Of a stretch of DNA of 64,000 nt, positions 1,026 through 58,200 are shown one piece after another. The translations under genes and the position numbers were made by a program. The DNA is taken from the NCBI GenBank assembly GCA_963921795.1, contig OY997642.1, forward strand, positions 29,981,837-30,045,836, written 5' to 3'. The notes beneath the pieces are model-generated. The model made no database searches and was not told the origin of the DNA. It was given only the letters and a program-made list of their open reading frames with translations. Source of the stretch: Nannobrachium achirus. Its lineage: Eukaryota > Chordata > Actinopteri > Myctophiformes > Myctophidae. How positions within the stretch are numbered: position 1 is the stretch's first letter; each line of letters starts with the position of its first letter.

Positions 1026-1118
1026 CAAAAGAAGCAAAAATAGCCGATCTACAAGCTCAAAACGCATCGCAGCGTGATGCGTTTTGAGCTTGTAGATCTG
1101 CTATTTTTGCTTCTTTTG
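1026..1118. repeat. GATCTACAAGCTC palindrome, near-perfect 43-bp arms
   Basis: Arms run from caaaagaagcaaaaatagcc inward through gatctacaagctcaaaacgc, and the mirror ends ttgcttcttttg at 1118. One mismatch in 43 pairs. Best-preserved member of the dispersed hairpin family described in the findings. Confidence 0.9.
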
Positions 1119-1405
1119 TATGAGATACTAGAATGACAAAGTAGGACGTAGCAATATGCAATGTGGCCCTCTGGAGTTGGCCCTCTCCATCATCAAAGTT
1201 GCCCACCCCTGATGTACATGATATCATGGGGAGAAGTACAGTCACACTCATGTCAGTGGTAAGGTAGTTCTGCCAGGAGGCACAAGACAGAGATCACAGG
1301 CATACTGTTGCAGGCCTCAAGGCCTAAAGGACGGTCTGAACCATAACAAGATAGACTTAACCAAAACAATAGCTATCAGGCCTAGTGGAGACATCTAGTC
1401 TAGAC

Positions 1406-1713
1406 AAGGGGTCTTCAACGTTTTCAGGCCAAGGACCCCTTAGTTGAGAAATAGATGAAGCAGGGAGTGGGACCCCCACAACCTGTTCATAGATTCCATA
1501 TAGTTTCATTGTTTGACAGCACAATTATTAGTTTATGTTGGATTCATGTCAATTTGTTTTCTTTTTCCCCAATATACCAAAGTTATTTGCCAAAAATAGA
1601 AGATTTACGAGCTCACAACGCCTCGTGCTGCGAGGCGTTGTGATTTGGAGGACCCCCTGTTGTAACTCTGAGGACCCCCTAGGGGCCCGGACCCCCTGTT
1701 GAAGACCCTTGAT
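1406..1713. mobile_element. MITE with CAAGGGTCTTCAAC ends
   Basis: Left caaggggtcttcaac and right gttgaagacccttg are inverted; flanks gtctagac and atctagac match in 7 of 8 bases, suggesting an aged 8-bp hAT-type duplication. Internal aggaccccc repeats. Confidence 0.55.
1591..1642. repeat. GATCTACAAGCTC-family palindrome
   Basis: aaaatagaagatttacgagc, then cacaacgcctcg/cgaggcgttgtg paired around tgctg; the outer right arm is lost. Sits inside the MITE at 1406-1713. Confidence 0.75.
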
Positions 1714-3041: not shown

Positions 3042-3069
3042 GTTAAACATACATAAACATAAATTAAAT

Positions 3070-3120
3070 TATCTACAAGCTCGCAACGTGTCTCATCCGA
3101 GCTTGTAGATCTGCTATTTT
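3070..3120. repeat. GATCTACAAGCTC-family palindrome
   Basis: atctacaagctcgcaacg and gagcttgtagatctgctatt mirror each other with a partly decayed loop. Confidence 0.75.
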
Positions 3121-6105: not shown

Positions 6106-9100
6106 GTACGCTAACACATTGTTTCCCAAACCATTGTCATGGGTCACGACTCGAGTAAAAATAAAAATGTCTTTTCCTACAAAAATATAATCTATATTTC
6201 AAAAGATGGGAAAATCTGTTAATACAAGTGACGCTTCCTAAGGTCGCGCTGAAACAACGAAATACGGCACATTGAAGTCATTGGATGCTAAGAATATTTA
6301 ACTTAATAGCCAGGAGTTCCAGCTATTCTTACTTACCTTTTCAAGTCCTCCATTTTAGGAGAAGAAGAAAAAATAATTGACCAAAAAAACAAACAAACAC
6401 ATCTAAGAAATTACATAAATAAAATATTATAATAATTAAGAAGTCGTGAAAATAGCTGATCTACAAGCTCTCACATGTTGCTGTTTCCCCCAAAAAATGT
6501 ATGGGTCACGACTTGATTTAAAAAGAAGAAGAAAAAAAAGAAATCCAAGTAGGATACTGGAAGCTGATGGTAGGTGTGGCGCTCCACCTCAGCAATACAT
6601 CTCCCAGGGGTCTAGCGGATTGTAACGGGGACAGACTCCCGCATGTTACCGGCTGATACTGATAATAAGCCACTCCCGACCTACTTATTGTGTCCCGGCC
6701 AGGCAAACTCTCTTTTGGGTCTCGAGCAAGTTTGGGAACACATGCCTACCTGTGAATCATGTTGTATGATGTCCTTTTTTATTCTGCTACATGAAGAACC
6801 GGGTGACATCAGAGCCCATCTGCACATCTCTGCTGTACACTACACATGCATGCTGTACATAGACATAACATGCATGCATACATGTAGAGTACATGTGCAT
6901 AAAAACAGCCATAGGCAAAATATACCGTGTAATAGAACATGACCAAAACAAGAGCCTGAGATATCAAAGGTCATGCTTCACTGTAATACGAAATAGATAT
7001 CTCAGCATAAGACACTGCAACCAGATCTGTGTGAGCTCCAATTAAGGTCCTGGCACGTTGCCTGGTAGCTCCACACATAAACCAGGTCGGAAGAGGTGGA
7101 CTATACAGTAGCAGTGATTCTCAGCCTTTTGACACCCCACAACAAACATATTTGAACTGGAGACCCACCCAAATTAATCATATTTGAACTGGGGACCCCC
7201 ACCTCGACACAGACTTGGAATTGTAGGCATTACATTTAGTTTGACTCGTGAGCTTGTAGATCAGCTTTTTTCACAATGTTTGCCTCTTTCTTATATTATA
7301 TGACAATTTGGCCAATGTTTGACCAGTTCTTATAGTAGGCCTATAATAGTTTGTTGATTATTATTATTTTGATGATTTTTGTTTAGGTATTAAAATGGTC
7401 TTAAAAGTCCTTAAATCGTCACTTTACAGTTGGTTGAGTGAAATAAAGTGTAGACTAGAGATATCTACCTGTGAGCAGTAGTCACATAAGAGTGTTTATC
7501 TCAGTCTCAGTGATGTTGTTGGCTGTTCTCTCTGGGAAGGGGGTATCATCTGTGGAGAGGGGCTATCAGTGATGTTGGCGGGGTCTTAGGGCTGGTGTCT
7601 GGTGATAGGATAGCAGTGCTGCAGGGCCTCATCAGTGACCCAGAGCATGCAGGGAATGCCTGGAAGCCTTTTAACAGGTTTCATAAACTGAACGAGGGGC
7701 GAGAGGCCACTTTGAAAGCTCAGTGAGGTCGGGCAAATGCCTCCACTGTGAAATCATGGAGGCCGATATCGGCATCCTAACCATGGACTAACTGACAGTG
7801 GATAAAACCTTGAATTATGGTTCAGGCTAAAAGTGACAGGTAGACAAACATGATATCAGGTATTTGGGTTAGGTTTAATCACACTTACAGTTAAAGTTAG
7901 CCTTAAATGACCAGTATGACCTAAAAATTGAGGTATGGTGAATATGTACTATCATCAGGGTTATAAACCTACTTTTGGCCAGCTGGCAAATGGTCTCAGA
8001 ATATCTGTAGCCCCTATGCTGTCTTACATGTAGCTGCAGAGTGGAAGAATGGAAGAATCTCATGGAACACATATGTGTGACTATCATTTTAAAATTTATA
8101 ATGATAGATACCTACAGTATTTCCTACCGCGAGGGAAATTAAGTATTTTCAGCCCAACCCAGCTGATTCGCTGCCCAAAAGGAGCGTGTGAGCAATTAGG
8201 GGTTAAGAGTCTTGCTTAAGGATACACATCGACATTGCTACCCTGGCCTGAAATCGAACCTGGGACTCAGGTTCCCCAGGCGGGCTCCCTAACCATTCAG
8301 CTATGCCACCCCTAAATTATATTATATTATAGCTAGTGGGGTTGACAATCTAGCAGAACACAAATTGACCCCAATCTCACTAATGAACAAGAAAATTGCC
8401 ATGGTAATTTATAATAAAAGCACACATAGTAAAAAAAAAAAATCACACCTGAAATGAGCGGTGCTGCTACTGATAGTCCCACATGACATCCACACTCACA
8501 AAAGTTGTGTATCGTCACTGTTGGGCAGAAACCTTGTATCTCCAAGTTTCAAATTTGTACGTTCTTTCGCAAAGTAAAGCCCTGCTTCATCACACAAGGC
8601 CGTCGCACAAAAGTAGTGAAAACAGCTGATCTACAAGCACACAACGCCTCGCGGTGCGAGGCGTTGTGTGCTTGTAGATCGTCTGTTTTCACTAGTTTAA
8701 ATCTTTTTAAAATGATAAATACAAAACAAACGTTTTTGGACATACAAGGTTTTCACCCGACAACAATGGTATGCTGATTGACACAGCATCAGTGCTTCAC
8801 AATGTGACATTGGCACGAGAAAAAAAAAACATTTTCTTTGAGAAAGCCTGTGCTTCCATGTTATTCCAGGCCCAGACTACATACGACAGAAATACAATGA
8901 GCCGTTGGAGGTGCAGGAGGTTCCTGAGGTGAAGGAGAAATCTCCGTCGGGGAGCCCCCATTTCTATCGTAAGGGGACAACACCCGACCCGTCTCCAACT
9001 GCGAGCCCCTCTTCGTCACCTCTCGCTGCCAAGAAGGAAATCATCGTCGCTGCTGCACCTCCTCCACCTCCTCCTGCTGTAGTGGCCCCGAAGCCCACTG

Positions 9101-10820
9101 TGGCCCCTGCTGCCCAGAGCCAGAGTGCAGGTAGGCTTCAACTGGGATGTCTGATGGCTGCTGAGGGGATAGAGATAAAATAAAAGTTAAAATCCTCAAA
9201 AGAGGACATGCATCTTCTTCAACACTACTCTTAAGTGATCCTAATTATAGTTGACCTGATGACAAAAACATTATCAAAACATCAGCAACAAACAATCTTT
9301 GCCTCTTTGCCCACTTTATCTTTTGCTACACAGCCTGACAAATCAGTTCGTTAATACAGTATTTCCAATTCTGCTAAAAAATAAATTAATATTCTTGTTA
9401 TGTTTTATTGCCATCTATTTATCTTTTCTCTATTTCCTCTGTCCTTGCTGTTGCATTCTTTTTGTTTGCTCTGTGTTGCAGGCTTAACCAGGGTGCCATC
9501 GAAGCTGTCTCTCAAACAGGAAGCGCGAAAACCAGAGCCGCCTCCAGCGCCCATTAAACCAGCCGTCCCAATCAGCAGTGTCCCCAGCAACGGGCAGATT
9601 CACTCCCAGTTCCACAGCTACTATGTCAACACTGAGGCTGTCAAGATACCGCCGCCGGATGAACCCATCGGTGTGGAGGAGGACTTGCACCCATCGTGCC
9701 TCGCTCGCTTGCCGCCGCCTGCAAAGATGCTTGCGCCGAGTGCATCGCCCGCACCGTTGCGTGCGCGTGCGCGTGACCCTTCACCGGCCCCGGCTAAAGA
9801 GATCGCCAAAGCACCAGAGCCTGCCAGATTGAAAAAACAAGATTCACGGCCAAGGAGCCTTGCGGAAACCAAGAAAGCCAGCATGGAAATGGCCACCAAC
9901 GATATTGTAGTGGAGGAGTCAGTGAGTGTCATCTCATCCATATTTTCTTATAGTCAATGTGGGAACATTACCAGTGTTATATCGTCACTGTCGGGCAGAA
10001 ACTTTGTATCTCCAAGTATCAAGTTTGTACGTTTCTTCGTAAAGTAAAGCCCTGCTTCATACAAGACGCACAAGTCGCACAAAACTAGTGAAAATAGCAG
10101 ACAGGCACACAACGCAGGCACACGTTCTACAGGCACACTACAGGCACACAACGCCTCGTAATGCAAGGCGTTGTATGCTTGTACTGTAGTTCAGCTATTT
10201 TCACTGTTCTAAATCATTTTTTAAAATGATAAATACAAAAGGAACGGTTGTGGACATATAAGGTTTCCACCCGACAGCAACGGTATGTTGACCAATTGGC
10301 TGCACAGCAAAAACCTCTGTTTACCTTAACTAAAGTAAGCCCTTATACTGTAGGACATGTTTTACACTCACAGGAGCTTGGACTATCCAAATGCCTTTTT
10401 TATTGAAGGTGCTAAGTACTGGTGGCTCACCAGGTACATGTAGACCACATACCATCAAGTCTCAGTCATTGAGTATCGGCTTGGGTTTAAAAAGGGTGCT
10501 AAATATAGATGACTAACATTTCGATGTCAACACAACTCATAAACTAAGTAATTATACTACAAACATTGAGCCTGTAATTGCCATAGTCCAACATAAACAA
10601 GACCAGTTCATCCATATAATGATAGTACAGGTGGGTGTGTGTTGTGTGTGGGCACGTGTGTGCGAGAGAGGGAGGGGCCATGACATAGTGTATGCATTAT
10701 CCACTCCTAATCAATGCTAAACTCTGCTTCTACTTCCAGGGCCCTAACTCTATCCTGGTGGCTCTTGTCATGCTGTTGAATGTTGGACTAGCAATCATTT
10801 TTGTCCATTTTCTCACCTGA
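5987..10820 (+). CDS. jph1: junctophilin, best match junctophilin-1 (3' part of gene, four coding exons)
   Basis: Junctophilins tether the ER/SR to the plasma membrane: N-terminal MORN repeats bind the plasma membrane and a C-terminal helix anchors in the ER/SR. Only the C-terminal half is here, in exons 5987-6105, 8870-9130, 9482-9921 and 10740-10820, all with GT/AG sites and compatible phases (1, 1, 0). Seen: a helical segment with IARAVARELSPSFHQPG, then PDYIRQKYNEP, SPHFYRKGTTP, a Pro/Ala-rich divergent region with NGQIHSQFHSYYV, and a final hydrophobic segment ending GLAIIFVHFLT and stop. These match my recollection of vertebrate JPH1 (SPHFYRKGTTP and the FVHFLT end). The MORN exons are not in the first 5.9 kb and must lie left of the window. 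Whether this is the teleost a or b duplicate cannot be told. Family very likely; paralogue assignment good. Confidence 0.93.
6106..8130. other. jph1 intron, upstream part
   Basis: Contains half palindromes at about 6,451-6,470 and 7,247-7,274 and a ctcagccttttgacacccc MITE fragment at about 7,112. The rest shows no gene or clear repeat. Confidence 0.6.
8130..8313 (-). mobile_element. tRNA-derived SINE, minus copy
   Basis: Reverse complement begins ggcatagctgaatggttagg (A-box region), has ggttcgatttcagg (B box), then a body with gcaagactcttaacccctaa and gctgggttgggctgaaaata. Same family as 55,647-55,842. Confidence 0.7.
8516..8768. mobile_element. TIR MITE with CpG-rich palindromic centre, copy 1
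   Basis: Outer inverted ends gttgggcagaaaccttgtat and atacaaggttttcacccgac surround a central perfect hairpin (8615-8693) with arms agtgaaaacagctgatctac and acaagcacacaacgcctcgc. Lies in the jph1 intron before the exon at 8870. Confidence 0.75.
8870..9130 (+). CDS. jph1: jph1 exon (start of divergent region)
   Basis: Acceptor ttattccag ends at 8869 and donor gtaggc starts at 9131; 261 nt, phase 1 on both sides. It encodes PDYIRQKYNEPLEVQ, then SPHFYRKGTTPDPSPTASPS and a run of prolines and alanines. The low-complexity Pro/Ala tract is typical of the poorly conserved junctophilin divergent region. Confidence 0.92.
9482..9921 (+). CDS. jph1: jph1 exon (rest of divergent region)
   Basis: Acceptor ctgtgttgcag ends at 9481 and donor gtgagt follows TCA at 9921; 440 nt, phase 1 to phase 0. 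Encodes LTRVPSKLSLKQEARK, the conserved-looking SNGQIHSQFHSYYVN, a GC-rich Arg/Pro segment (RARARDPSPAPAK) and MEMATNDIVVEES. The intron after it carries a TIR/palindrome MITE copy at about 9986-10281. Confidence 0.92.
9986..10281. mobile_element. TIR MITE with palindromic centre, copy 2
   Basis: Same ends as copy 1 (gtcgggcagaaactttgtat; aaggtttccacccgac). The centre is expanded and partly repeated (aggcacacaacgc, aggcacacg, aggcacact). In the last coding intron of jph1. Confidence 0.7.
10740..10820 (+). CDS. jph1: jph1 terminal coding exon (ER/SR membrane anchor)
   Basis: Acceptor tacttccag ends at 10739. Encodes GPNSILVALVMLLNVG, then LAIIFVHFLT and TGA at 10818-10820. This single hydrophobic helix at the extreme C-terminus is the junctophilin tail anchor. 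A consensus donor (aag/gtaagt) follows at 10836/10837, so the stop is only 16 nt before an exon junction, too close to trigger classical nonsense-mediated decay. Confidence 0.95.
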   Translation, partial: GPNSILVALVMLLNVGLAIIFVHFLT

Positions 10821-16200: not shown

Positions 16201-18355
16201 TGCTGACTGCATGTTAAAATGCAGATTAGGCAAGAAACTAACGACTCATGTACAGTACGCTATCACAAATCAAAGCAAAGCAAACATTAAGGAGTTGGAG
16301 GACCTGTTTCACCAGAAATACAGTTTGCCTGCTAGAGTGACTGCAGTGCAAAAAGAATGATTTTGATTAGAGAAATTGTTCAAATGTTCTTAGTAGCCAG
16401 TGTTGGTAGCCAGTGACTTAAATGAGGAATTGGCCTTTGAAATTGACCACTACTAACATAAATATATTTAGGTATTTGGATTAATGTTTTTAGAAATATG
16501 TGAAGACTTAATGAGGATTATAGTTTACTTAAGAGGAAGAAAAAGTCATTGTCTTAAATGCGTTTTAACCCTATTTGCAGGATCTAGCATACAGTTTATT
16601 TATCTTTTGTGTTCATCTTTTTAGTCTTGTTTTGCATGCGTATATTGGTTGAAGTTTTGTTATCAACTTGTACTTAGGATGTCAAGATTAAATTATGACC
16701 CTTATAGAGATTGTGTTATCAACCACCTTATTTATATTGGCAGTTTAGTAGTGGAAGGAAAATGCTAGTGTTTAATATTTTTCATCTTATTTATTTATTG
16801 GCTCATTTCTGTAATTCGTCCATTGCTTCAGACTGACCTAGGCTGTTCAAAGTATGCAGCACATGATTAGAGTTAACCACTTTCAAAGTTCCATTCCTAG
16901 TTCCAATCCTACCAGCAGACATCCTCTTCATTCCATCATTGAGAACTTGCTTTTCTGCCTGGAGATAGTTTGCCAATGCTTTTCACTTCATCCTTTTGAT
17001 ATTTGGCAGGGAACTAAGAGCTAGAACTGGGATTCACTGTACTCTGTTGGACGAATAGTAGGATTGCTAACTGTTAAATGTCATTCCATACAGTGCTTAC
17101 AGTTTACATTAGTGATATGGAAAATGGAACATCATCTCCCTCTTTATTCATGATGGCACATAATGACCGGTAACTACTACAGTATACATACCGTAATAAC
17201 TTTAGTTAGCCTGTGTGTCCACTTAAACATGGAAATGTCTACAATACAGACTTGCTTGAGCTAATTGTATGAATCATAGCTGTTCTACTTTATGTTGCCC
17301 TTTTTTTGCTCAGTCTGAGTGCATTGGTCATCCTACAGTAGGTGCAAGGTTATGTGCTGCAGTATGAGCACAACACTAAATTACGGTAAAGTACTGTAAG
17401 TGGCCTTCCGATTGATGGCATTAAGTGGGAAAAAGGATGTGATGCAGTAAAAGAGAGAAAGTGTAGTATTTTCATTTCATGCTTGGAAGTTTAAGAGTAT
17501 TGACATCTGAACATTCTTTCATAAAATATACCACAGATTTTACAGTTTTATTTTGGTTAATAAATAACTAACATGATCATGAACATGTTTATTTAAGTTT
17601 TAAGTTGTAACACAATTTTGTGTTTCTTAGCGTAGTCGTTGGTAAAATGAATTATGTGAGGGGTTTCTTTTCGGTGATGTGTCATTCACAGAGTTCCAAA
17701 TTAAAATGTTTATCTGTGGATAATGTATGTCAGACAGTTACTTGCACTCTGACAGTAAGATGTACTGTATCAGAGCCAAAGTTCATGTATTGGATAAGAT
17801 GGTCTTGGTTGACTCTAGCCAATACAGCAAAGATGATCTTTTGGAAAGCTATTCTGAGAAAGGCCTAATCTTAGACAGGTAACCTGAAGATGTTTAGTCA
17901 GGAAAATAGCAGGATGTGAGGAAGCATGAGGAAGAAATACATTAAGGTTAGGTGCAGTATGTTATAGGGAGAAATCGGCAATGGAAAGATTTCCAATTCA
18001 TTTGGAATTGTGGATTATTATTATTATTTTTTTATTAATGATTGTATCTTGAAATGCTTTGAGAAGAGACTGGGCTAATGATAAACGTTTGGGTAAGTTA
18101 CAAATACAGTTCAGGACTCATTCTTCTTTCACTCGTTTAAATCCTCTCCAGGAGGAAAATAAGGAGTAGAAATATATAAATGAATAAAGAGATGCAGATT
18201 AGGCTTACAGTAGCTTTTTACCTAAAAGCTGCTGTTGAGGGCAGACTTTCACTGAAGGATAGTTTTCAGATCAGGATAAACCACATTAACCCTGGCTAAT
18301 TTTAGGCAAATGTTCAAATATTTTCACAATCTTGAATTTCTTTAAAACATGTTTC

Positions 18356-18422
18356 AAAAATAGAGAAAATGGCACATCTACAAGCCCACACAGTATGAGC
18401 TTGTACAACATCTATTTTTGCT
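18356..18422. repeat. GATCTACAAGCTC-family palindrome, degenerate
   Basis: aaaaatagagaaaatggcac, atctacaagcccaca, then tgagcttgtacaacatctat. Within the inferred jph1 3' UTR. Confidence 0.6.
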
Positions 18423-18832
18423 ACAAGTCATACAAGTACATTGGGCTTAAGTGGTTAATCCATGTCTGTGCAACCGGTAGGCCTATTAATTTATTGTTTT
18501 TATTATTACATGTATTCTTTTTTTTACAGTCAAGCTAGAAGATTCAAGCACTGTATGCCTTAGGAACTGGCTCTCATAGAGTTAATTTTTATTGTCCAAA
18601 TTGCATGTGTGCAGCTGTGTATATGGCTATTTTCTACTGGTATCAAATTGTGCCATCATCTGGTTTTGTGCTAAAATGACAAGCTGTTATGACTACTGCT
18701 GAGAGAATGGTGCCCCCCCTCCCCTCCCCTTCCGCCACATGTAGTATTATTTTGTATTTCTTTTTTTGTCGAACAATGTGTATGTTTTGTTTTTTTTCAC
18801 AGTCAAAAATTTTGGATAGCCTATTTTTGTAA

Positions 18833-20060: not shown

Positions 20061-20063
20061 AAC

Positions 20064-20122
20064 AGCTGACATATAAGCTCACGTCGCGTCGCAGATGCAA
20101 CCGTTGTGAGCTTGTAGATCAC
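20064..20122. repeat. GATCTACAAGCTC-family palindrome, degenerate
   Basis: ataagctcacgtcgcgtcgc and gcaaccgttgtgagcttgta; outer arms lost. Confidence 0.6.
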
Positions 20123-21987: not shown

Positions 21988-22648
21988 CAGTGGTGTAAAA
22001 AGTACTCAAACTTTTTACTATTGCAATGCAGAAACACTCATGAGACACATGAGAGTGGATTCCCCATTCCACCCATGCATTTCAATGAGAATGGAGTGTG
22101 TTTTGCAGAAATTCTCTACTGGCATGAAACCGCTCCTTTCTCATTGAAATGCATTGGCGGAATTGGGATTCCACTCTCATAGGTACTTTGGTGTGTGGGC
22201 CACGCCCCACCCCTATAAGCAGAAGTCTGGAATTCAAAATTTCCTTGAGTAAAAGCACAAAAGTATTGGTGTCAAAATGTAGGCCTACTTAAAGCACAAA
22301 AGCAGAAAATACTCATTATGTCCCAGTTCCCTTTCACCCATTTTCAAGTTTTCAAATACAAATATTTGAAAATAGCAGATCAACAAGCTCACAGTTATTG
22401 TGAGCTTGTATTTTCAAATGGACAAAATGTATATAGGGCCGAAGTGGTTAATGTATGTTATTTAATAATAATCAATCGACAAAGTAACTAGTAACCAAAG
22501 TTTTCAAATAAATCTAGTAAAAGTACAATATTTGGAACCAAGATGTAGTGTACTAGAAGTAAAGTATTGGAAATCGGAAAGTACAAATAACTCAAATGTA
22601 CAAAAGTACAGTACTTAAGTAAATGTACTTAATTACTTTACACCACTG
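21988..22648. mobile_element. DNA transposon remnant with CAGTGGTGTAAA ends
   Basis: Left cagtggtgtaaaaagtactc and right aattactttacaccactg are inverted ends of a family common in fish. It contains a nested inverted repeat (gagtggattccccattcc, 22,055, versus ggaattgggattccactc, 22,157) and a palindrome copy at 22,363-22,420. Related ends occur near 49,540-49,620. Confidence 0.6.
22363..22420. repeat. GATCTACAAGCTC-family palindrome, short form
   Basis: gaaaatagcagatcaacaag, ctcaca/tgtgag paired, then gagcttgtattttc; part of the right arm is deleted. Nested in the CAGTGGTGTAAA element. Confidence 0.75.
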
Positions 22649-22814
22649 ACAGCTTGGAGGAGGGGGGGGGGGTCACTGTTGCTGCACTAGTGACTCCTAC
22701 AGGTTGGTTTGAGGGTGCCTGGGAGCAGGGGCGTCACAAGGGGGGGGGGGGGGGGGTCTGAGTTACTAGGGCCCAAGGGGGAGGGGCCTTAATTATTCTA
22801 TACTTTAGCTATAT

Positions 22815-22887
22815 AAAAAATAGCAGATATTAGCTCACAGCGCAGCACCGAGTGCCGTGCTGCGAGCTTGTAGATCTGCTATTTTTG
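22815..22887. repeat. GATCTACAAGCTC-family palindrome
   Basis: aaaaaatagcagat, cgcagcac/gtgctgcg paired tip, then agcttgtagatctgctattt. The tip sequence differs from other copies but remains paired. Confidence 0.8.
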
Positions 22888-24391: not shown

Positions 24392-24445
24392 AAAATAGCA
24401 GATCTACAAGCTCGCCACCCAGTGCTTGTAGATCGGCTATTTTCA
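24392..24445. repeat. GATCTACAAGCTC-family palindrome, loop deleted
   Basis: gaaaatagcagatctacaag, ctcgccacccagtg, then cttgtagatcggctattttc: stem intact, CpG tip almost gone. Adjacent to a (CA)n tract. Confidence 0.8.
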
Positions 24446-24541: not shown

Positions 24542-25776
24542 AGAGGTGCACTCCAATTATAGTGTGATGAATCATAGTATCACTGTACAGTGTACACTAA
24601 ATTACAGGGATCAAAATTAGAAGGCCAACAATATGAGGGGCCGTTTGGGCCAGAAATTGTGAAACACTTTTACACACACTAATGAGACAGTCTTATACGT
24701 ACTACTGAAATGCTTTTACATTCAATATTGAGACACTTTGACACACGCTGTTGAGACACTCTTACATATACTAATGAAATGTTATACGCTCAATATTGAA
24801 ACACTCTTACACTCACTACTGAAACACTCGTACATACATACATACTTTGTAAATCTATGCGCGTTCATATATGAAACCGTATACATACTCAAGTGAACAC
24901 TTCCGCATGCATATGAGAAAAACATACACATACATATATACTTCTGTGCCATATACACATACATACAAAATTCTTGCACACATACAAGTTAAACGTTTAT
25001 ACATATATATCTGAAACACTCACACATTCACCCATGAAAACGCTGCATATATATTGCTGAACACTTGTACATTTACTACTGAATTTCTTGTATTTCACAT
25101 GTGTTCATACGAGTAGCTTCAGTAGTATGTATGCATGAATTCAATATTATGTACACAAATAATTTCAATATAATGTATGAAAGAGTTCCACATGTATTCA
25201 TAAAATACATTTCAGTCATATATATATAAGTCATTTCAATAGTATATATACATTATTTTAATAGCATGTATATATATAATTTAACTATTATGTATAAATA
25301 ATCTCACATTTAATCATACAACTTTTCACTAGCACATATGCAAGAATTTTCACTAGTATTTGTATATATATCATTTAACTATTATGTATAAATAATCTCA
25401 CATGTAATCACACAACTTTTCACTAGCACATATGCAAGAATTTCACTATCACAGGAAGGCAATTTCATCCTCACAGGAAGGTGCCAAAGTCATGTGACTT
25501 TCCTGGCTGCAGACTATGGCTGCAGACCACAGCTCCATCAGATGTAAACAACAGTTGCTACAGACATGGAGGTAGGTGAGGGCAAATCTATTATTATTAT
25601 TATTATAGAATGATAGAATCTATTTAATAAACTAACGTTTTGTAAAGTGTTTTTTATCAGTTGTGTGTGAGAGTTTACTGTTAGCTAGCGAAATTAGCAT
25701 TTTAGCTAAGTCTAGTTGCAGAGTTGGCTTAGCCTGCAGTGTTTACAAGCCATGGCTCTATCTGTCTACTATGGGG

Positions 25777-26806
25777 TCCCTCAGCATCGGCCGAGGGACC
25801 CCCCGGGGACCCCTGGAGCTCCGGGGACCCCCGCGGACCCCCTGGCGCCGCCGCAAAGGGGCCCCCCGGTACTGCAGCGCACATAAAAACCCATAACTCG
25901 GGCTAGGAGCGACCGTACGAGACGGGACCGGTACCCACGCGTCTGGCTCGGGGCCCCGGAGCCGGCCGTGGCAGAGCGCCACCCGGTGGCCGAACGCCGG
26001 TACTGCAGGCGGGTAAAAAAGGCTGTAACTCTGCCCCCAAGCCACCGGGAGAGACGGGGCTGGATGCGGGGGGGGGTCCCCGAGGGGTCCCCCACCCCGG
26101 GGACCCCCTGGAGCTCCGGGGACCCCCGCGGGCGCCGCCCAAAGGGGCTCCGAAAGGGCCCAAAAATAAGAGCGGCACTTTCATGGGAAATTCGGGACTT
26201 TGACCGTGCGGACCCCCTCCATGGGTGACGGGACCGGGGCAAACGTGACAGCACCGCCTGGTGGCGGCCCCCCGGTACTGCAGCGCACATAAAAACCCAT
26301 AACTCGGGCTAGGAGCGACCGTTCGAGACGGGACTGGTACCCACGCGTCTGGCTCGGGGCCCCGGAGCCGGCGGCCGGCGGCCGAACGCCGGTACTGCAG
26401 GAGCTGGAGCTGGAGCTCGTAGATCGGCTACTTTTGGGTATTTCAGCCTATTTTCTACGGGCGCCGCGGGGAAACGCGGGGGTTCCCCGGGGTGGGGGAC
26501 CCCCGGGGACCCCCCCGCAGCCGGCCCCGTCTCTCCCGGTGGCTCGGGGGCCTAGTTACGGCCTTTTTTACCTGCCTGCAGTACCGACGTTCGGCCGCCG
26601 GGTGGCACTCTGCCACGGCCGGCTCCGGGGCCCCGAGCCAGACGCGTGGGTACCAGTCCCGTCTCGAACGGTCGCTCCTAGCCCGAGTTATGGGTTTTTA
26701 TGTGCGCTGCAGTACCGGGGGGGCGCCACCAGGCGGTGCCACCAGGCGGAGCTCCAGGGGTCCCCGAGGGGTCCCTCGGCCGATGCTGAGGGACCCCATA
26801 GTAGAC
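25777..26806. repeat. GC-rich core of the giant foldback element
   Basis: Sharp GC-rich island between AT-rich arms. It starts with ggggtccctcagcatcgg and ends with its inverted copy. Inside, a module with acccataactcgggctagg and gagccagacgcgtgggtacc occurs in direct copies near 25,870 and 26,275 and inverted near 26,640-26,715. Related sequence (gctcctagcccgagtta, ctgcagt) also lies at 430-490. Long open frames here result from GC richness and palindromy. Confidence 0.75.
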
Positions 26807-27374: not shown

Positions 27375-28729
27375 TAGGGATGCGAATCTCGACCACTGTG
27401 GCGATACGATACGCATCACGATACACTCCCAGCGATACGATATAATTGCGATACATTGAAATCTTGCCGATACGATACATCACGATACACCCCTGACCCC
27501 GATACGATGCGATATGATTCACGATATTTTGCGATACACCCCTGGTCCTTATGATGCGATACGATTCACGATTCGGTGCGATTCAACACAATGCAAAGGA
27601 TTTATATTAAAGCCCATGTAAATTTCCCCCCCAAAAAATTACTAAAAATGCATTACATTTAATTTCCAAACAATTTATTGTTTCACTGTAGTACTAGGCT
27701 CTGTCTAACAATCCAACTTATTGAAATCTGGGAGAACACTCCTTGCTGGCTGGTAGAATTGTTTGATTAATACTATATCATTATATCATTATTATATATC
27801 ATTACATCCTCAACAGGTGGTCAGGGACCCCTAGGGTCCTCAGAGTTATGTGAGGCGGCCAAATATTAATAGTTAGTTTTTACAGTAACCAATTGAACCC
27901 TAGCAAATAGCAACCCTATGGGGGAACATTAGCCAATACATTAACACTTATTGAGGGTTTAAGAGATAATAATTCATGGATTATAATGAATAACATAAAT
28001 CCATCATATTAATAGAAAAGATAATGTGTGAACAAATAAACACAACATAGTAATGTATTAATGTCACTGATGATATAGTACTGTCAAACAAGTCTCTGAC
28101 ATGTTTTAATCTGCAACAGTTTTATATAATAGCCTACAGTAGTCTAAAATAGCCTACAGTGGGGGTCCCTGCTTGATCTCTCTCTTCTCAGTTAAGGATC
28201 CTTGACCTGTATTATTATTATATTGTATGAATATAATCTAGGATTTTGCCATTTCTAGTCAAAATGTTTCAAAACGTAGATATTTGAGTCACAACGCGTC
28301 GCGTTGCGAGCTTGTAGGTCTGCTATTTAGGTGCGTGCGCGACACCGCCGAGCTGCCAAGTATAAATCAGGCTCCAGCCTCTCTTTGCAGAGGGAAGCAG
28401 CAGCAGAAGAGTGTTCTGCCTGCTACAGTAACAAGTTGTGAAACAGTGTCAAATACTTTGTTTTAATCGCTAGCTGCACGCCCAGTATCGTTGTTGTAGT
28501 TCATACGTGTGTGTAGTTAAAGCGTGGAAGCTTCTGCTTTGTTTAAATCAATTCCGTCGCAGACTCGACAAGAAGAACAAACGGGTGTGGAATGTGGATC
28601 ATAATATCACGCAGCGTGCTCCAGTCCAGTGACACAACAACGGATCACATCAGCGAACATTGGACAGGGATGTTATAAAGCTAAACGTGGTACTAATCCT
28701 GCATGTTTAACCAGTGGGCTCACGAATGC

Positions 28730-31759: not shown

Positions 31760-33700
31760 AAGCTGAAACAATGTTTTGTTTTCAGTGTTATATTTATGTA
31801 TGTCGCAAAATGATTGATACTAGTTAGGAATTAAACTGTGTTCAAATGGAACCAAGTGGACGTACCAAACCTGACACAAACGCTGTCTGGCATGAGAATG
31901 CATACACACACAAAAAAAAGAAGTAAATTGCACTCATATGGGGCACAACAGCAGTGTTACAACAATGTCTAACACTTCAAATGGACTTGATAGTCATCTT
32001 GATAGGCTCTGATAGGACTAGATTTTCAGGTTGTGCAGCAGCCTGAAAATCTAGTATACAGTAGCTTAAACTGGGTTAAAAGACATTCTGTTGTATGTCA
32101 GTAAATGATTGATATAAATGATTGATAGTTAATCATTGTTAAAGGTAGCTTGCAATCCAGACTTTGGCGTTTTCTTGGTTGTTTTGTTTTGAGAATAAAA
32201 GTGGAAAAAAAAGAAAGAAAATAAAACGCCTTGCAAGCGCCTCATCTAGATTCCAGGCTAATGTGCTGTAAGGTTAAAACGTTAAAGCTCTCTCTTCTCA
32301 TATCATTGATTATAGAGTGTTTGTTCAGTAACATGGGGTCTTCCCATCTCTCCAGCTCCTTTCGTTTACACTAAAAAGGAAATGCATTTTCAGGTGTTAC
32401 ACCAATTTCATCTTATAGCTTCAATATTATAGTGTTCCAGGTTCATTTGTTCGTTTGTTTGTTTGTTTGATCACCTCCAATTTCACTTGTTTATCAAGTA
32501 GATGGTCCTCATACATATCTGTAATAGGTCCAGGTGATGCCATGCAGCACATGTGTCCCCCAGCAACGTCTGGGAGTGCAACATGGAATTACCAGTTGAA
32601 GACAGGGCCGGACTGGGACATAAATTCGGCCCTGGCCCACCACAACAGGCAAGAATCGAACATAGAAGATCTATAAGCCCACAATGCGTCGAGGCAGCGA
32701 TGCGCTGTGGGCTTGTATCAGCTGTTCAATATTTGGGTGGGACTCCTGGGCCACAGTAGCCTGGGATTGGGCTTATAGGCCAGTATTCACCCTTATAGTG
32801 CCAGAAAGCTGAACTAGTACATGTACAGCACCTGTACAGTAGACAATGCTAATCTATTAGTTATTAAAACACGTTCATAACAGTCTTAATTCAATCATTG
32901 TGTGTCACCATATACAGTAAGTGACATATATGTAAACACGCGGTAACAATACTATTTACAAGAAATAGGTGTGGGTGAAAGTTTTATCATACCATGCAAA
33001 AGCAGTGTACTGTAGCTGTCCCTCTCACAGACAAAGCCTCTCACTCCTACTTAAAGGTACAGTAGGGTAAGTGACTTTCTTTGGTTAAAATAAGTGTTTA
33101 ATAGCTCTATATTCTGATAGTTCGCATTGCTAGACTGTTTGTTCAGTAGCAGGAGTCTCCATGTCTCTCCAGCTCTTTGTTAAACAGAAGATGCATTTTC
33201 ATACCAATTTCATCAAATCAGGATAGAGTTCTCAGTCAGGATAAAGTGAAATTAGAAGCGATGACACAAAGAAAGGAGCAGACAAAATTGGACCTGGAAC
33301 ACTATAAAAACAATTCTGATAAATGGGTACCCTCTCCTGATTGGCTGAACATTTGTCACCTACCTGAAAATGTATTTTCTGTTTATTAAAGAGCAGAAGA
33401 GACAGGGAGACCCCTGGTTCTGAACAAACACTCTATGATTGAGTGTGTGTAACAACATTTTTACATACATCAATAATATAATTTCTGCCATCAGGCAACA
33501 ATCAACACCTACTTGTAATGCGCAGGTCGTACAAGTTGACACACAGTCGGGTTCGGGTACGGTTAAGATGCAATTACCATGGGTTAGGGCAGGTGGGTCA
33601 ACCCCCAAAGGCATGACTAACACCTACGTAAACTAAAAACCCAAAATTAAGACAAAGTATACACACAATGCAGTGCCAAACATTATACCTGCAATGTCAC
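31760..33700. other. repeat-rich interval upstream of the GPCR's 3' end
   Basis: Segments 32,330-32,400 and 33,140-33,215 are diverged copies of each other (tctccagctc, gatgcattttca, ccaatttcatcaaatc). A gggccggactgggac MITE lies between. No gene seen. Confidence 0.5.
32661..32731. repeat. GATCTACAAGCTC-family palindrome
   Basis: agaagatctataagcccaca and tgtgggcttgtatcagctgt. The gcccaca/tgtgggc pair replaces ctcacaa/ttgtgag of other copies. Nested in a MITE with gggccggactgggac ends (about 32,606-32,765). Confidence 0.75.
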
Positions 33701-46015: not shown

Positions 46016-47163
46016 TAGGGCTGTCCCCGACTAAGGATTTGTATAGTCGACTATGATTTTAGTCATTGTGTTGATAGTCGAATATTAGTCGACTATGGCC
46101 CGTTTTTTTTAAATTATTATTATTATATTTTTTTTCGTTTTTTTTTTTTTTTTTTTTTTTTTTCTACCCCTTTCTTTTACAATGGCATATAAACAACAGA
46201 GGTGAAACACTCATTTAAATAACATGTCTTCTTGACTTGTTTTAATAGATAACTCATTCATTATTTAAGCCAAGGTTTATTATCATGGCCTTTAAGAATA
46301 GTAATAAATACAGCAATAACAACAACGAAATAATATCTCTAAAATAAATAAAGTAACTAAATAATATAAGGCAAATTAAATAACAAAATACTAAAATAAG
46401 TAGGCCTATAGCAGGTGTAAAGTTTATTCACTTAGAAGCTAAAGCCCCAGACTCCGATGTCTGTGTGTAACAGCCATGCAACTACTTGCCGGTCACACAT
46501 TTCTATAGGACACCAATATCTGTGTAACATGCATCTATCCACGAGACCTGCACAGCCTGCGCTGAGCCTGACAGAGAGACAGCGATTGGATTTTACAAAA
46601 CAGACCCCGTAACTCGTCGGGGCGAAAGAGAAAAGGAGAGCTTAAAACACAACTCTAGTGCAATTGTGTTGATGGCATAGGTTTATTGCCGATCTGCAAG
46701 CTCAAAACATGAGCGTTCGCGTCGCTTTTGGGAGTATGGACATTACATAAGTAAAGGGACTTATTAAGCCAACTTACTTTGATGTTGCTCGGTGTGGAGT
46801 GGTAGGTCATAGCCAGATCATGCATCTTTATTAGTTTTGTCCTCTACTTGTTCAAAGTGACGGAGCCTGATTGAGTGTTAACACAGCACAGCTGGCAGGT
46901 TCTGTGGCTTCTACGCAATGCACACACAGACAGTACGGCTGTGCCTCATTGATTGATTGAAAGCAGCCAGCCTAGGCTATGCATGTTTTATTGCGAGAAA
47001 CCAAAGTATATGTTAAATCATCGGACAGTAAGCACCCCAACAAAAAAAATAAAAAATAAAAAAAGTTTTTTTTTTTTTTTTACATTCAACTAAGATATTG
47101 CCATTCGACTAGGTGCCGTTTCGATCGATTAGTCGACTATTCGACTATTCGGGGTCACCCCTA
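46016..47163. mobile_element. non-autonomous hAT-like element, 1148 bp
   Basis: Ends tagggctgtccccga and tcggggtcacccctaa-like inverted repeats, flanked by the perfect 8-bp duplication GTTTACAC (46008-46015 and 47164-47171). Subterminal gtcgacta repeats on both sides. The interior is AT-rich with a long poly-T tract near 46,137 and a half palindrome at 46,689. No transposase seen. Confidence 0.85.
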
Positions 47164-48899: not shown

Positions 48900-50677
48900 C
48901 ATTAACCATTGAATGGGTTCACTTGATAAACTGTGTTAGTTCTTCCTATGGGCCCACCACCACCTTGACCTCAACCTGCTATCTGCAAACGTGCCTTTCT
49001 AATGTGTGTACTGTGTAGAATATGTTTCAAAACGAACCACACCAAATCTGATCAATAATAGCACACGTCACTACTGTACTTTGTGTTAATATAGCATCAA
49101 GATCAGTTTATCCACTTTAACCCTACATACATGTACATTGGGTATTTGAAAATAGTCTACAAGCTCTACAAGCTCAGAATGTTGCATGTGACAGACACAT
49201 TTGGGAAAATATTTTTCAAACATTTTCAGAACACAGATCTTGCACTCCCTGGCACAAAGTATTTTCAGATGGGGGTCTGTGGCCAAATGCACATTTAATT
49301 TGGGGGTCCTTGACAAGAAAAAGAGAACCACGTCTTTGTGCAGTTATAGTGCATGCATATTGCAGATCTGAAAAGGACTTCACAAAATAAGTGAGAAATA
49401 TGTTATTGATCAATGCATAAAGATGCAGACAGGCCTGTCAGATATTTGTACATTTCATTCACAGCTCTTTCACTGTGTGTTTTAAAGACTGCTTCTAGAT
49501 TTGAGAGAAATAAAAAGTACAATATTTGTCTCTGAGGTGTAGTGGATTAGAAGTATAAGTATTCTTACCTTAAAATTGGCACAGTACTTGAGTAAACATA
49601 CTTAGTTTCCACCACTGCAGGCCAAAAGCTACACACAAAGGGAGCATGCATGGCCAAGTCTTTTCAAAAGTTCATGACCTCTGTGACTAATGTTGGCTTA
49701 TACTGTAAACACAAATGAACTCTTTGACTGTATGTTTGATGGGTTTATCTTTTATGGGCTTATCCCCCTATATTCTTTAGATTTACAAAACATAAAAGAA
49801 AAATCTTGCATAGTGCGGCTTTATGGCAGCAACTGTCCTGTAAATGCTTAACTTTCATCTCAAGTTATCTTATTCCGATGACCCTGGTCATCTTCAGGGT
49901 AACCATAACACAGATAAGCGTTTCTTTTATTTCTTGTCATGGGGAATAGTCTGATTTCCTTAATGTGGTCAATGCATGATGATGTGTACATTTATCAGAG
50001 GTAGGGACTGCAAAGTGACCAGTGTCCAAATCTGTGAGAGAGATATGTTTGCACTTTGCATGCAAGTGAACTTCTGTGTCCTTGGTCAACAGCTCCTGAA
50101 CAGTTAACTAGATGATAAGACACTGTTTGCCTTCCATTCAGCAAACTCATTCAGCTCATAGATGCACACAACAAATACAGTTATTGCCTACAGTAGTTGT
50201 CGCCGTACTGGCATGCATCTTCTAAAGATGCATGTCTTAAAGCAACGTGGAACGTTAGTAAAACCTTGAGGTGCATCTGGAGCTACTATAAACGTGCACT
50301 ATTACAACCAGAGTGCTAGTCTCCACCTACCTCCCTCCATCGTTCTATCTGTGTGGTGCATGTGATGACAAGGTTTTGCGGCTGTGCGTGAGACCGTGCG
50401 TATGAAAAGACACATGGCAGTGGGGGGGAATTGGGCTATGTTCAAATATGTTTTTAAATGCCTTGTGTCAATTTTGTTTGTGGAGGGCTGGATTGGGAAC
50501 ACAGGACTAGAATTTGAAAAACAGAACCCCCATGTCCACATTGACAATACATTAAGATACATAGAGCATGTAGCCAAAGGGCATCAGCCAGCTGATCCGT
50601 CTACAAAAGTAATCAAATTCACATTCAGTTGTTAATAATGGCTGGTATTTCAGTCCAATGAGGAAAGAGGAACCGTC

Positions 50678-52799: not shown

Positions 52800-54934
52800 C
52801 AGACGCAATTGTAAACATTGCAAAGTGATAATATTTAGAGTGTCTGAATGGCCAACAGATGCTAGAGATAAAACACAGGTGTACAAATGTATTGATTTAA
52901 TATCTGTTTAACACACTGACGTACAGTAGACTCACACTCCAAAGCACAGATTTCCTCATAGTGCAGTGGTTGGGTTATGTACGGTATGCAGATGAAAACA
53001 TTATACACTCCACAGTTATGCATTAGTGCCACAATTAATAGAACTAAACGATTTCATTGATTACAAATAATAATAAATAAATAACAAAACAATCAATTTG
53101 TTTATAAAAAAAAAGAAATCAATAGTAGCAGCCACATTCACATTCTCAGATTTTACTGTGTAAATTGCAAGACACTTGTTCAAATTGTAACCCCAACCCC
53201 ACATGCAACGTAACAGCACACATACTGTAGATGTGTGATGTTCAACGCAAGTTAAGGAAAAGAAAACAACAAATTCAGGGTTTGTATTTAATTGTAAAGC
53301 AGCTATGTTCTGTTCCAAAGACAGTGAAATTCAAGCAGCGGTTTTACTGTTGAGAGTGAAAAACTATTAAATATTCATATCAGTCAGTGTTTTCAATATC
53401 AAGTCTACTGTTCTGTGACCAGTCAGTCATACAGTGGTTTAAATATCAAGTCTGCGACAGTTCTGTGACTCATTTCAAGGCTATGTTCAACACATGTTCA
53501 ACACTTTGCAGTGTCTCTATTGACAGAGAAAAGTAGGCTGACTGGTTCTTCTGCCTTTGACATCAGTTAGAAAAACCCATGGTTCTACAGCCGATGCAAA
53601 ATCACAGCAGACATGGTTGTTTCATCAGGAGATATATTCTGGTAAATGTACCTATCCCAGTCCAAGTACAAGCACAAGAAAACATATATAAACTAGTGAA
53701 TTGTGATTAACTCCTCTGGCAATGTACAGTATAGACAGCTAATTTGATTAGTAATTACAGCCAGCAATAGCTCTCTGTGTAACTGATGTGCATTATAGCC
53801 CACTGTCAGTCCCAAATACTCCTATATAAGATGCATGTCATATTTCACCAAAAAATTAAAGTGCCATTGTATTATTGTTTCTCTTGCATAGTCACAGTGT
53901 CAGGAGGCCTACAGCCAGATCGAATACACTCAATGCTATCAGGAACTCCAATGAAATGACTCGACTTATCTACTTCACTAGTGAACTAGTGAACGGGCAG
54001 CTACAGATGAAGCAAGGGTAAACTCCATGGTCAGATGGCACCCATAGATTAAGCTTCAAGGTCAATAGAAGCCACAGTATAATATACAGTATCTCCCACT
54101 ACAAGGTCAAGTCAGTAAATGTTACTGATAATCATGCAGTGTGATTGATAGAAAGACTTTGGCATTTGTGGCTGTCATAGCAACGACCAAGGCCAAGCAC
54201 TGTCTATGGCCCAGGTAATATTTTACCTACAGTCAGAGTTCCATATATGGAAAGGAAACGCTCAAGTGTAGGTTTACATTTCTCTCAGTGAACAGGTGAG
54301 ATTTGGGGTATTTCACCCCCCATACAGTATGCAGACATATTCTCTTAGCAACACATGGAATCACACAACATAAATATACTTCACAGTCTATCCATTTATA
54401 TTTACAAAACCTGTTCATTGGCTTTTCTTATATTAAATATATACTATTTACAGTACATCTAAAGTAAAGACAACAGGCCAGGATGCCCAACTTAAAAAGC
54501 ACAATAGCCCTTCAACAAAGCGAGTACAACCTCTGCTATTGGAGGGTTAACGGTTAGGGTACTGCCTAAACCACTTAAACCCTATATACTTCAATGACCG
54601 GGGTCTGTACTTGGTCCCCTCATTTTTTCCCTCCACACCAAATCTCTTTGGTTAAAATAGGCGATATTCAAGCTCCCAACGTGCCACGGGACGTATTGTG
54701 AGCGTGTAGATCTGCTGTTTTCACAGAATGTTCACCTATTACGACTCGCCCAGAATAGGGATGCTACAGTTGATGGGGTTAAAGTACAACAAGCAAATTA
54801 AATTGCCTTCTCCCTTGAGCAACTTGAACTTTTGTCTGAAAGGACAGAAACCAGTTCCATCCCACAAGTTGTGGACAAAATATATACATACAGTAATAGA
54901 TATATCACCATTTTGATGCTTGGAATATTGTCCA
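52800..54934 (-). other. possible cyp7a1 3' UTR and downstream DNA
   Basis: Largely repeat-poor sequence after the cyp7a1 stop. No strong AATAAA was fixed on the minus strand, so the transcript end is undefined. Confidence 0.4.
54656..54723. repeat. GATCTACAAGCTC-family palindrome downstream of cyp7a1
   Basis: aaaataggcgatattcaagc, cccaacgtg, then tgtgagcgtgtagatctgct. Degenerate but recognisable on both arms; about 210 bp from the cyp7a1 stop. Confidence 0.65.
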
Positions 54935-55285
54935 TTATATTGACCTCAGTGGTTCCCTCTCTGGTAAGGTCACAGTGAGAGGAGATTGGCTGGATTTCAG
55001 CTTATACTTGAAGTCCACATCATAAGTCGGCTGGAGGATTCCAAGGCCGGCACGGGACTGGTCGAGGGGCGGGACCTTGACCGCAGGGTCCAATAGCTCC
55101 ATATCGAAGTAGGACAGAGTCAGAGTCAGGAACTGCTTGATCTCGTGCATGGCGAAGAATCTGCCGGGACATTTGGTGACGCCGGAACCAAAGGGCATGC
55201 AGTAGTAGCGAAGTTTGCGGCCACAGCGGTAAAATGTGGTTTTCTCCTGATTGTTCTCATCCAGGAAGCGGTCATATTTGTACTC
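54935..55285 (-). CDS. cyp7a1: cyp7a1 exon 8 (haem-binding loop, C-terminus)
   Basis: Acceptor tttcttccag/GAGTAC; stop TAA is the complement of 54935-54937. Encodes [19 protein letters not shown], the haem loop [12 protein letters not shown], and [20 protein letters not shown]. The tail after KYKLK is longer than in the human protein as I recall it. Confidence 0.96.
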
Positions 55286-58200
55286 CTGGAAGAAAGGAAT
55301 TAGGGAGGTGTTAATATTATTGTTTCTTTCTTTTTTACTCTTGTCTACTGACAGAGTGTTGTGTATTTATATCCCAGGAAATGGAAAGAATAACCTGTAT
55401 TTAGTCTCAAGCTTTGGCTAATATTCTTCAGTTAAATATTTATAAAACCCACAGACAGACTTAACCACATTAAACCAGACATCCTCTCTTTCGCAGATAG
55501 CCACCTTTTTTTTTGTTTTAATTCTTCAAGATTATAAAAAGAAATGCACAAATGCAATATGAACTTGCAGATCAGCAACTTTTGCTACTTTTGTTGGATA
55601 CCGTCGTACAAGTAAGTATAAGAAAGCATAACCATTAAGCTATGCTGCATAGCTTAATGGTTAGGGAGCCTGCCTGGGGAACCAAAACCCCTGGTTGTCC
55701 CTGGTTTGATTCCAGGCCAGCTAGGGTAGCAATGTTGATGTCTGTCCCTGAGCAAGACTCTTAACCCCTAATTGCTTACGCGCTCCTTGTGGGCAGCGAA
55801 TCAGCTGGGTTGGGCTGAAAATGCTTAATTTCCCTCGTGGGACAAAATAGGTGTATACAGCGTATATATATATAAAATAGGGCATTAATTGATGAAAAAA
55901 TATTACATTTGCAGATACAAGGTTTTTACAGCGACATTATGTATTTTGTTCTTGCAGCCTACTGGCTATTATCAGGCTCTTCATACTTTTCTATGTGATA
56001 GTATCTCCTTTGAATTAATATGGAAAACATGCTTCTTCTTACATGGGGGTCCTCGTAGATTTCAGGATCAAAGTGCAGCATGGGCGGGTACAGAGCAATG
56101 ACATCATCCTTCCTTATACGGTAGGCTTCCTGGTTGTCCAGGTGAAGCAAGAAGTCCTCCTTTGCAACGCGCACGTTCATGGAGGCACTGGACAGGCGCA
56201 TGGCCTCCATTATGACGCTGTCTGTAAAGGCAACAGAGATTTCAGGGAACGGCCCTTTGATAAACAAATTTGTCCCACATTGGGTCCCAAGATGACAGTG
56301 ATGACCACAGCATCACTGTGGAACCCGTGTGGGTACATTTTTACACTTTCTTTGTACTTTAATTTGCTGTATAATAACGCTACACACATACCTAGAATGG
56401 GCATCTTATCCAGCTGCTCCCTGGTCATGGTCAGCTGTGGGTTGTTGTGATCAACCGTTTGACCGGAACTCTCCAGGATTTTCTGTACCTCTCCACGGAC
56501 TGCTTTCATTGCTTCTGGACTCCTACAAGACATATATTCTGTTAGTCTGACTGCACAGAAGCTTACTGTACACACACTCACACACAGATGTACATAACAA
56601 TGAATACATCAGAGTATACAGTGCCCTGCTGCAGTCTAGGCACTGTAGAATTCACTAGAACACTGTCATTGAATTGCACAATTTTGTTTTAAAATAGGAA
56701 TAGAAATAGGTCATAAAATTTGGGAAACTCTTTTAAACAGTATACAGTTTTTATTTGGTGGGGGACAGCAAACCATTGTTATCACTTGTGGAAGGTGAAG
56801 TCATATTGTGCCTTTTTATTTCAGAGCATTTTGAATCATCCAGTGACCCCTAAACATTGAACGGCCCCTAAGCATATTCTCTCCTATTCCCTACCTCAAG
56901 TACAGTATGATAGGGAAATTCCCTCCTGTCTTTAGCACAGAGCTGTTGCAAAACTGCATCTATGACATAACATTTATCTGCTCTTAGGCAGTTCCCTATC
57001 TCTATCTGCACAATTTCCACAATAAGCGGTTTGAACTTGATAACTCCTAGCATTTTAGACCTCACTGTGCCTCTGCCCCTCTCTTTCCCTCAACAATCCG
57101 TCACCACATTACTACACTTTTGGGCCCACTTCTTGACACCTAACTTCAAAATACAACCATGACTGGAATTTGAATAAAGTAACTTAAGGTAAATGTCTTA
57201 CATATTTTGTTTATTATTATTATTATTATTTAATCTTCTTTTACCTGATCAGGTAGAAGAGGCTCCAGAAGGTAGCAGGTAAGGTGTTGGCCTGGGACGC
57301 CCAGAGCAGAGCCACGTGGGTCCTGGTTTTGCTCACATCGCTGAAGGTCGACAAGGCGTCATTGAGCAGGATCCTCATGGAGATCAGGTCTGAGAGGTTT
57401 TCTCTCCGAGCCAGGTTGTCAACATGCATGGTCTTAGCCAGGTTCTAGGTGAAGTGTAGGAGAGGAGAGGAGGATTTGTATTTTGTTGTTGTCGGGTGGA
57501 AGTCCAAAAAACGTTTAGTTTTGTATCTATCATTTTAAAAATGATTTTAACTAGTGAAAAGATCAGATCTATAATCACACGTCTTGCGGTGCGAGGTGTT
57601 GTGTGCTGGTAGATCAGCTATTTTCACTAGTTTTGTGCGACAGTCTTGTATGATGAAGCAGGGTTTTACTTTACGGAGGAAAAAAGCATACAAATCTGAA
57701 ACTTGGAGATACAAGGTTTCTGCCTGACAGTGACGATTTGTGCTAACAAGACATTGGTTGGACACACCAAAAATCTTAGCAGTACTACAGTATGTGCAAT
57801 CTATAGATTTGTGCCTCTCCTGCTACAGAGACAGAGTGAAACAGGTTTGCTTTGTCATTTTTATCGAAGCTTCAGGAGGAAAAAAACAATTCCACTAACC
57901 TCTCTTGCACTGTGGGCACTCTTGAAGACATGGATGGGCAAGCCGGCCACCAGCGCAGGGAAGATCTTGTCAAACTCCTTGAAGTTCTCCAAGGCATTAA
58001 GCACTAAGGCTTTCTGTGCTGCCACGCGAGCCTGTGACTTGTCGTCTCCCAGCTCCTTGCCAAACAGAGTCAAGTAACCAGACTCAAACATCACCTAGAG
58101 AGGGACAGAAGACATGAGAGCCTGGTAAGATTTGAGGTGGAGAGTTGCTTTGCTAAGTTGTACAACTGTTACTGTCACTCAGTCTCACTAGCTGTATGCA

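Follow-up and report, generated by a model that had tools for sequence, protein, structure and literature searches.

A 71-bp palindrome inside short DNA transposons with three kinds of ends in the genome of Nannobrachium achirus

How can one short palindrome lie inside transposons that otherwise have little in common? The question is raised by a 64-kb stretch of the Nannobrachium achirus genome (the window; G000:C5:29981837-30045836, in an assembly of 1.66 Gb and 564 contigs), in which a palindrome that we call P recurs. We consider it rather probable that many short non-autonomous DNA transposons (miniature inverted-repeat transposable elements, MITEs) have inherited P as a module of their interior, and that P is no transposon itself. 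A preliminary description of the window had offered two possibilities, that a minimal palindrome moves by itself or that it is copied between elements, and both are taken up below. Statistics were drawn from the window plus 25 stretches of 10 kb, with 16.7 kb masked as N. The stretches were picked at round coordinates with no random draw, and hold 0 to 12 P clusters each. About 290 kb was read outside the window, and the genome searches each scored about 40 candidates.

The palindrome and the elements that carry it

P consists of two 29-nt arms around a 13-nt tip: the consensus arm AAAATAGCAGATCTACAAGCTCACAACGC, 13 nt, and the mirrored arm. The resulting 71 bp is the modal size, found exactly in 31 of 69 two-arm copies in the window and sampled stretches. 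Arms were detected by a local-alignment scan with AAAATAGCAGATCTACAAGCTCACAACGC at a cut-off score of at least 15 or at least 13. At the higher cut-off the window has 27 arm matches in 19 clusters, and these correspond one to one to the 19 positions first listed, so the repeat itself is confirmed. At the lower cut-off there are 34 matches, versus 1 when the window is reversed and 1, 2, and 2 in three Markov-shuffled versions of it; a single control match (score 16) reached the cut-off of 15. Some of the copies first described as full fall short of this at the cut-off of 15: the one at 1591 is a left arm alone, and at 20064, 22363, 32661, and 57552 the second arm scores 13-14. All six copies tested were predicted to fold as DNA into one hairpin (-17.2 to -39.6 kcal/mol; z -8.7 to -14.2). 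The window gave no Rfam match at the curated threshold and no tRNA or tmRNA gene (ARAGORN, bacterial code). Four 13-15-letter pieces of P searched in paper text returned no relevant match (one irrelevant Theileria paper). A viral origin was rejected after one exact 21-letter arm pattern had no match among viral contigs.

The sample holds 136 P clusters, 69 with two arms and 67 with one, and 68 of the two-arm copies have usable flanks. Outside the window, 117 clusters were counted in 233,300 unmasked bases; extrapolated to the whole genome, this gives 832,000 clusters (bootstrap 605,000-1,070,000). Clustering of the flanks gave 22 multi-member clusters and left 132 of 265 flanks as singletons.

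The short elements around P have ends of three types: hAT-like with an 8-bp duplication, TTAA-flanked, and with a 2-bp duplication. For the hAT-like type (Fam1), five pairs of CAG...CTG-type ends are flanked by an 8-bp duplication, one mismatch being allowed; four contain P, two copies each, and all four have identical 8-mers. For the TTAA type, P was present within 110 bp of 22 of the 50 TTAACCACTTnAnCCC motifs (2.6 expected; seven of the 50 belong to a single tandem satellite in L028) and of seven of the eight TTAACCCATTTAGGCCT motifs (0.4 expected). Loose pairing of left and right TTAA motifs yielded 20 pairs, some of them probably chance, with P in 12; the P-bearing pairs span 179-885 bp under this loose matching. 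TTAA stands at both ends of, for example, L009 6928-7123 and 8708-9292, and several other loose pairs are damaged at their ends. Fam2-type ends form 11 pairs, ten with P. By eye, seven of these pairs have TA on both sides and three agree with TC, AA, or TT; the exception is a pair in L013, without P, which has TA against TG. Thus the claim that the same palindrome occurs in unrelated elements is borne out by the unrelated ends and target duplications around P. Two side observations belong here: at L013:7943-8080 two mirrored outer ends of Fam2 form a short derivative that lacks P, and the L028 satellite (G000:C20:13000001-13010000) has seven near-identical units with TTGACCACTGGAACCC at a spacing of ~0.8-2.2 kb.

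The same arrangement bears on the idea that P is a hot target, into or beside which different transposons prefer to insert. P is very common, and nested elements do exist (a Fam2 element lies beside a second P in L078), as this idea would have it. P sits, however, between both ends of complete elements with the duplications outside, by which the idea is nearly refuted, and its position is constant among the family copies examined; we regard a hot target as scarcely tenable.

Nine family representatives, which include the related hosts Fam2 and Fam5b, were compared in 36 pairs. Their P arms are on average 89.6% identical (minimum 82.8%; best of four arm pairings), and the first 27 nt outside P are 56% identical versus 55% for shuffled flanks. 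Within one family, joined-flank matches are about 75-94% identical to the query. Since P differs across unrelated hosts about as much as copies do within one host, it must be constrained, corrected, or recently exchanged. The preliminary description had only ~60-75 bp shared; this holds between the nine representatives, but some pairs have more in common. Elements with hAT ends and elements with TTAA ends share an interior that contains P twice (P to P' ~260-500 bp), and several families extend the palindrome by ~6-11 bp with symmetric arms of their own. Nor did a single longer consensus for all copies emerge among the nine, though a few weak cross-family flank similarities remain. In a flank-pair test 18 of 253 pairs reached the null 99% score (~2.5 expected), the top ones within known groups. 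Common ancestry of all flanks was rejected on this test, in which only a few cross-family pairs, at the edge of the null, were among the 18.

The likeness of the arms might also be read as that of a conserved cis-acting site needed for transposition, in families descended from old elements whose flanks have decayed beyond recognition; a subterminal transposase-binding palindrome of a TTAA-type superfamily would be a putative example. Arms 90% identical across families with unalignable flanks fit this reading, as do the few weak flank similarities between families and the presence of TTAA-type ends with P although the spacer varies. A parallel is the conserved interior of the CMITEs of corals, for which the authors suspected a role in transposition (PMC2872659). 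Taken alone, however, such a site leaves P in hAT-like and 2-bp-duplication elements unexplained, and six piggyBac loci, with flanks that stop short of the termini, showed no TTAA-type ends with P. We hold this explanation to be unlikely.

Borders, arms, and the search for empty sites

An element that inserts alone would be expected to betray itself at its borders, but no direct repeat of at least 5 bp borders the 71-bp P in any of 68 copies. Shorter direct repeats were of 3 bp in ten copies and of 4 bp in two. Inverted matches of at least 5 bp, on the other hand, were found in 10 of 68, and at the first four positions outside P the frequency of inverted matching is 0.79, 0.47, 0.62, and 0.60, versus 0.42, 0.28, 0.29, and 0.31 with shuffled partners. 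The symmetric extensions differ by family: CTAGTG/CACTAG in Fam2, GTGCTG/CAGCAC in Fam6, ATTGTG/CACAAT in Fam4, and CAAAAGAAGCA/TGCTTCTTTTG in the hAT element at 1037 of the window; Fam1 has almost none. The two arms of a copy also change together. Thirty-one copies of 71 bp contain 34 matched differences, versus 14.1 on average and at most 27 in 2000 re-pairings, which suggests hairpin-templated correction. If one arm serves as template for the other by fold-back copying when the DNA is replicated or repaired, the arms would stay matched, and family-specific symmetric bases could be added outside the 71 bp.

We then looked for sites free of P. For Fam6, Fam4, and Fam2, flanks of 80 + 80 nt were joined without P and the whole genome was searched (40 scored of 1541, 1453, and 1755 candidates, respectively). 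Copies with an intact P give two separate matches in such a search, and junction-spanning matches are P-poor by selection. Twenty loci of each family were fetched. For Fam4 and Fam2 these were the 20 best; for Fam6 they were 20 of the best 22, two apparent local duplicates being omitted. In all 60 loci P is broken by a deletion or small rearrangement, with 0 to 40 of the 71 P columns kept. The largest deletions occupy 56 distinct intervals (20 in Fam6, 19 in Fam4, 17 in Fam2); four Fam2 loci were assigned one interval, one of them differing in sequence, and two Fam4 loci share another. No shared or clean empty site was found among these 60 P-poor loci of three families. In a fourth family, that of the hAT end CAGGGCCGGACTGGGAC (40 scored of 565), eight fetched loci comprised five with recognizable P, one with a partial P, and two without, with different breaks.

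P is thus often broken later by private deletions. Since no P-lacking copy in the families tested resembles an uninvaded ancestor, each family most likely had P from its start. The possibility that a minimal palindrome moves by itself fares poorly on these results. A self-mobile P would account for an identical 71-bp core with constant borders in unrelated hosts, and for the frequent symmetry of the flanks, as would arise if P inserted at palindrome centres. Against it stand the lack of direct repeats, the lack of a common empty site in the 60 loci and for a Fam2 single-arm junction (see below), and the fact that, by eye, several of the 13 two-arm copies whose flanks fall in no cluster resemble known families in their flanks. 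We judge independent insertion to be very improbable.

Exchange of ends and routes of spread

Copying between elements is borne out in the sense that interiors change ends. An interior of the form P - spacer - P' (~260-500 bp from P to P') was present by alignment in four hAT-ended and three TTAA-ended elements. The hAT-ended L027 and the TTAA-ended L032 match over 277 bp at 90.6% identity and 180 bp at 81.7%, and in L027 the match ends about 24 bp beyond P and 15 bp beyond P'. The same two-P interior between hAT ends and between TTAA ends means that interiors and ends have recombined. No interior-free hAT host was found: the joined ends matched on one side only in all 40 scored places (266 candidates). 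In the hAT host a direct repeat of 7-9 bp, (GA)GGGGCCC, flanks the interior on both sides and is perhaps a relic of its entry. A further exchange of ends, between the hAT element at 1037 and Fam5b, is moderately supported: similarity is seen on one flank (best score 29.5, null maximum 17.5), and the other gave no score above its null. Four Fam5b copies scored 17.0, 23.0, 29.5, and 19.5 against the 1037 flank, the last below its own null maximum of 21.

If P is an internal module, it would gain a new family when its interior, or part of it, joins new ends during repair of a transposon break, either by gap repair with template switching or by nested insertion after which the inner ends are lost. 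Breaks and template switches may occur at the hairpin itself, given that the ends change ~15-25 bp outside the two P copies. Spread would then combine amplification of the hosts with occasional joining of interiors to new ends. These steps of transfer and correction lean on what is established about palindromes and about the gap repair of transposons.

Several points weigh against this account. That P passes between families is our inference, and an old nested insertion could also explain the hAT- and TTAA-ended pair, given the (GA)GGGGCCC border repeat. The covariation count is inflated by relatedness, because 13 of the 34 matched arm changes sit at one site common to Fam1 copies. For a few cross-family flank pairs the score (14.5-15.5) lies around the null maximum of 15, as might be the case with a more ancient shared ancestor, and 54 of 136 P copies are without a clustered flank, so that some may lie in unique DNA. 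Finally, four of the five loci without any P column lost P and the right symmetric arm only, as a pre-insertion site could look if the arm was copied from the flank. The single-arm junction was therefore searched, for Fam2 alone; a full-length match was obtained only at the already known locus (40 scored of 313 candidates), and P-less one-arm copies were rejected as pre-insertion sites in that family.

P may possibly aid transposition, for example as a subterminal binding site. A selective role is conceivable: the spacer between TTAA-type ends and P varies, yet the two stay together, and the coral CMITEs have a comparable conserved interior (PMC2872659). A bolder version makes P a portable cis-acting hairpin that helps transposases of different superfamilies to mobilize or amplify its hosts. 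Cruciform extrusion, for instance, would bring the two ends together, and short elements that acquire P would gain copy number. Such a hairpin would explain ~90% likeness across unrelated flanks and the extrapolated 0.6-1.1 million copies; we think it quite unlikely.

The genome has plentiful piggyBac transposase (PF13843) genes (116 scored of 952 candidates). Arms of P scoring at least 19 occur near five of the six loci whose flanks were inspected, by eye as nested copies or in gene flanks, at most mildly above the expectation from P density. Autonomous piggyBac ends that carry P were not seen at these six loci, whose termini lie beyond the flanks examined. Apart from this, 16 of the 116 scored matches fall inside 0.5 Mb (G000:C2:71346413-71843994), most in frames of 500-640 codons, possibly an array of transposase-derived genes. 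For several loci, matches on different contigs agree exactly in score and in the length of the frame, which suggests recent copies.

A palindrome that stays almost the same across three integration signatures suggests that MITE interiors, commonly treated as filler, can outlive their transposon ends, the ends being exchangeable around a core. P offers a countable system for studying the birth of MITE families, whether hairpins bring about the exchange of ends, and whether a hairpin in the interior increases transposition.

Copies in the window and related systems

The copies in the window are listed in Table 1. In the enlarged Fam2 copy at 10091-10201, ACAGGCACAC-like units are repeated within the palindrome. 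The half P at 26413 lies in GC-rich DNA (25758-26841) whose repeated open frames have a high content of Pro, Gly, and Arg. Other open frames of the window look, by eye, like P450 7A1 and TMEM70, and are presumably of vertebrate character.

Table 1. Copies of P and P-bearing elements in the window (window positions).
Position	Feature	Evidence
1037..1107	P, 71 bp, in hAT-like element ("hAT5"), end CAGGGGTGGGCAAC, symmetric outer arms CAAAAGAAGCA/TGCTTCTTTTG	arm scan, genome copies, alignment of L001-L008
1593..1621	truncated P, left arm; left flank resembles Fam3 (TTAA-type) flank	arm scan, flank comparison
3071..3120	P, 60 bp span, left end damaged	arm scan
6449..6473	left arm of P; right arm lost, yet symmetric outer arms AAGTCGTG/CACGACTT retained	arm scan
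7248..7271	right arm of P, Fam4 copy	arm scan, flank clustering
8510..8771	Fam2 element, ends TATCGTC.../...GGTA; P at 8619-8689	end pairing
9980..10285	Fam2 element; enlarged P at 10091-10201	arm scan, end pairing
18277..18458	TTAA-type element (loose end match); P at 18366-18418	end motifs, end pairing
20061..20120	P, left arm weak, between CTTCCGG and CCGGAAG	arm scan
22369..22451	P (22369-22410), then TTAA-type end	arm scan, end motifs
22726..22885	Fam1 copy: hAT-like end (22726-22788) and P (22817-22885)	arm scan, flank comparison
24392..24443	P, 52 bp span	arm scan, fold
26413..26434	right half of P, GC-rich repeated DNA	arm scan
28301..28328	right half of P	arm scan
32603..32726	hAT-like end CAGGGCCGGACTGGGAC and P (32659-32726)	arm scan, genome search for the family
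46685..46708	left half of P	arm scan
49108..49171	TTAA-type end (TTATCCACTTTAACCC) and half P	arm scan, end motifs
54567..54782	TTAA-type element (loose end match); P at 54654-54721	end pairing
57481..57738	Fam2 element; P at 57557-57624	arm scan, end pairing

Among fishes, Angel and other MITEs are abundant short inverted-repeat elements. Foldback elements resemble the hosts of P in being non-autonomous and palindromic, with internal modules that are inserted, lost, or substituted (ModuleOrganizer, PMC2955051). They differ in forming one family with long terminal palindromes, and the passages on them describe no short palindrome shared across superfamilies. A conserved module in more than one type of transposable element is also known from the highly conserved V domain of short interspersed elements (SINEs), which is carried by the DNA transposon MER6 (PMC6887750); that module is SINE-derived, and the relevant passages mention no palindrome.

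The closest published case that we found is that of the CMITEs of Acropora corals, which have a conserved 75-base interior and different terminal inverted repeats, the origin of the interior being given as unknown (Wang et al., 2010; PMC2872659). These elements are described as ~100 bp long and TTAA only, with ~1600 copies estimated in A. millepora, whereas P-bearing TTAA pairs span 179-885 bp, 8-bp and 2-bp hosts occur as well, and P is extrapolated to 0.6-1.1 million copies. In the elements described here the conserved interior is a near-perfect palindrome that is also found in hAT-like and 2-bp-duplication hosts. The two are alike in the size of the conserved interior (75 bases versus 71 for P) and in the TTAA duplications of the TTAA group, and in both the interior is more conserved than its surroundings (for P, arms 89.6% identical; flanks 56%, versus 55% when shuffled).

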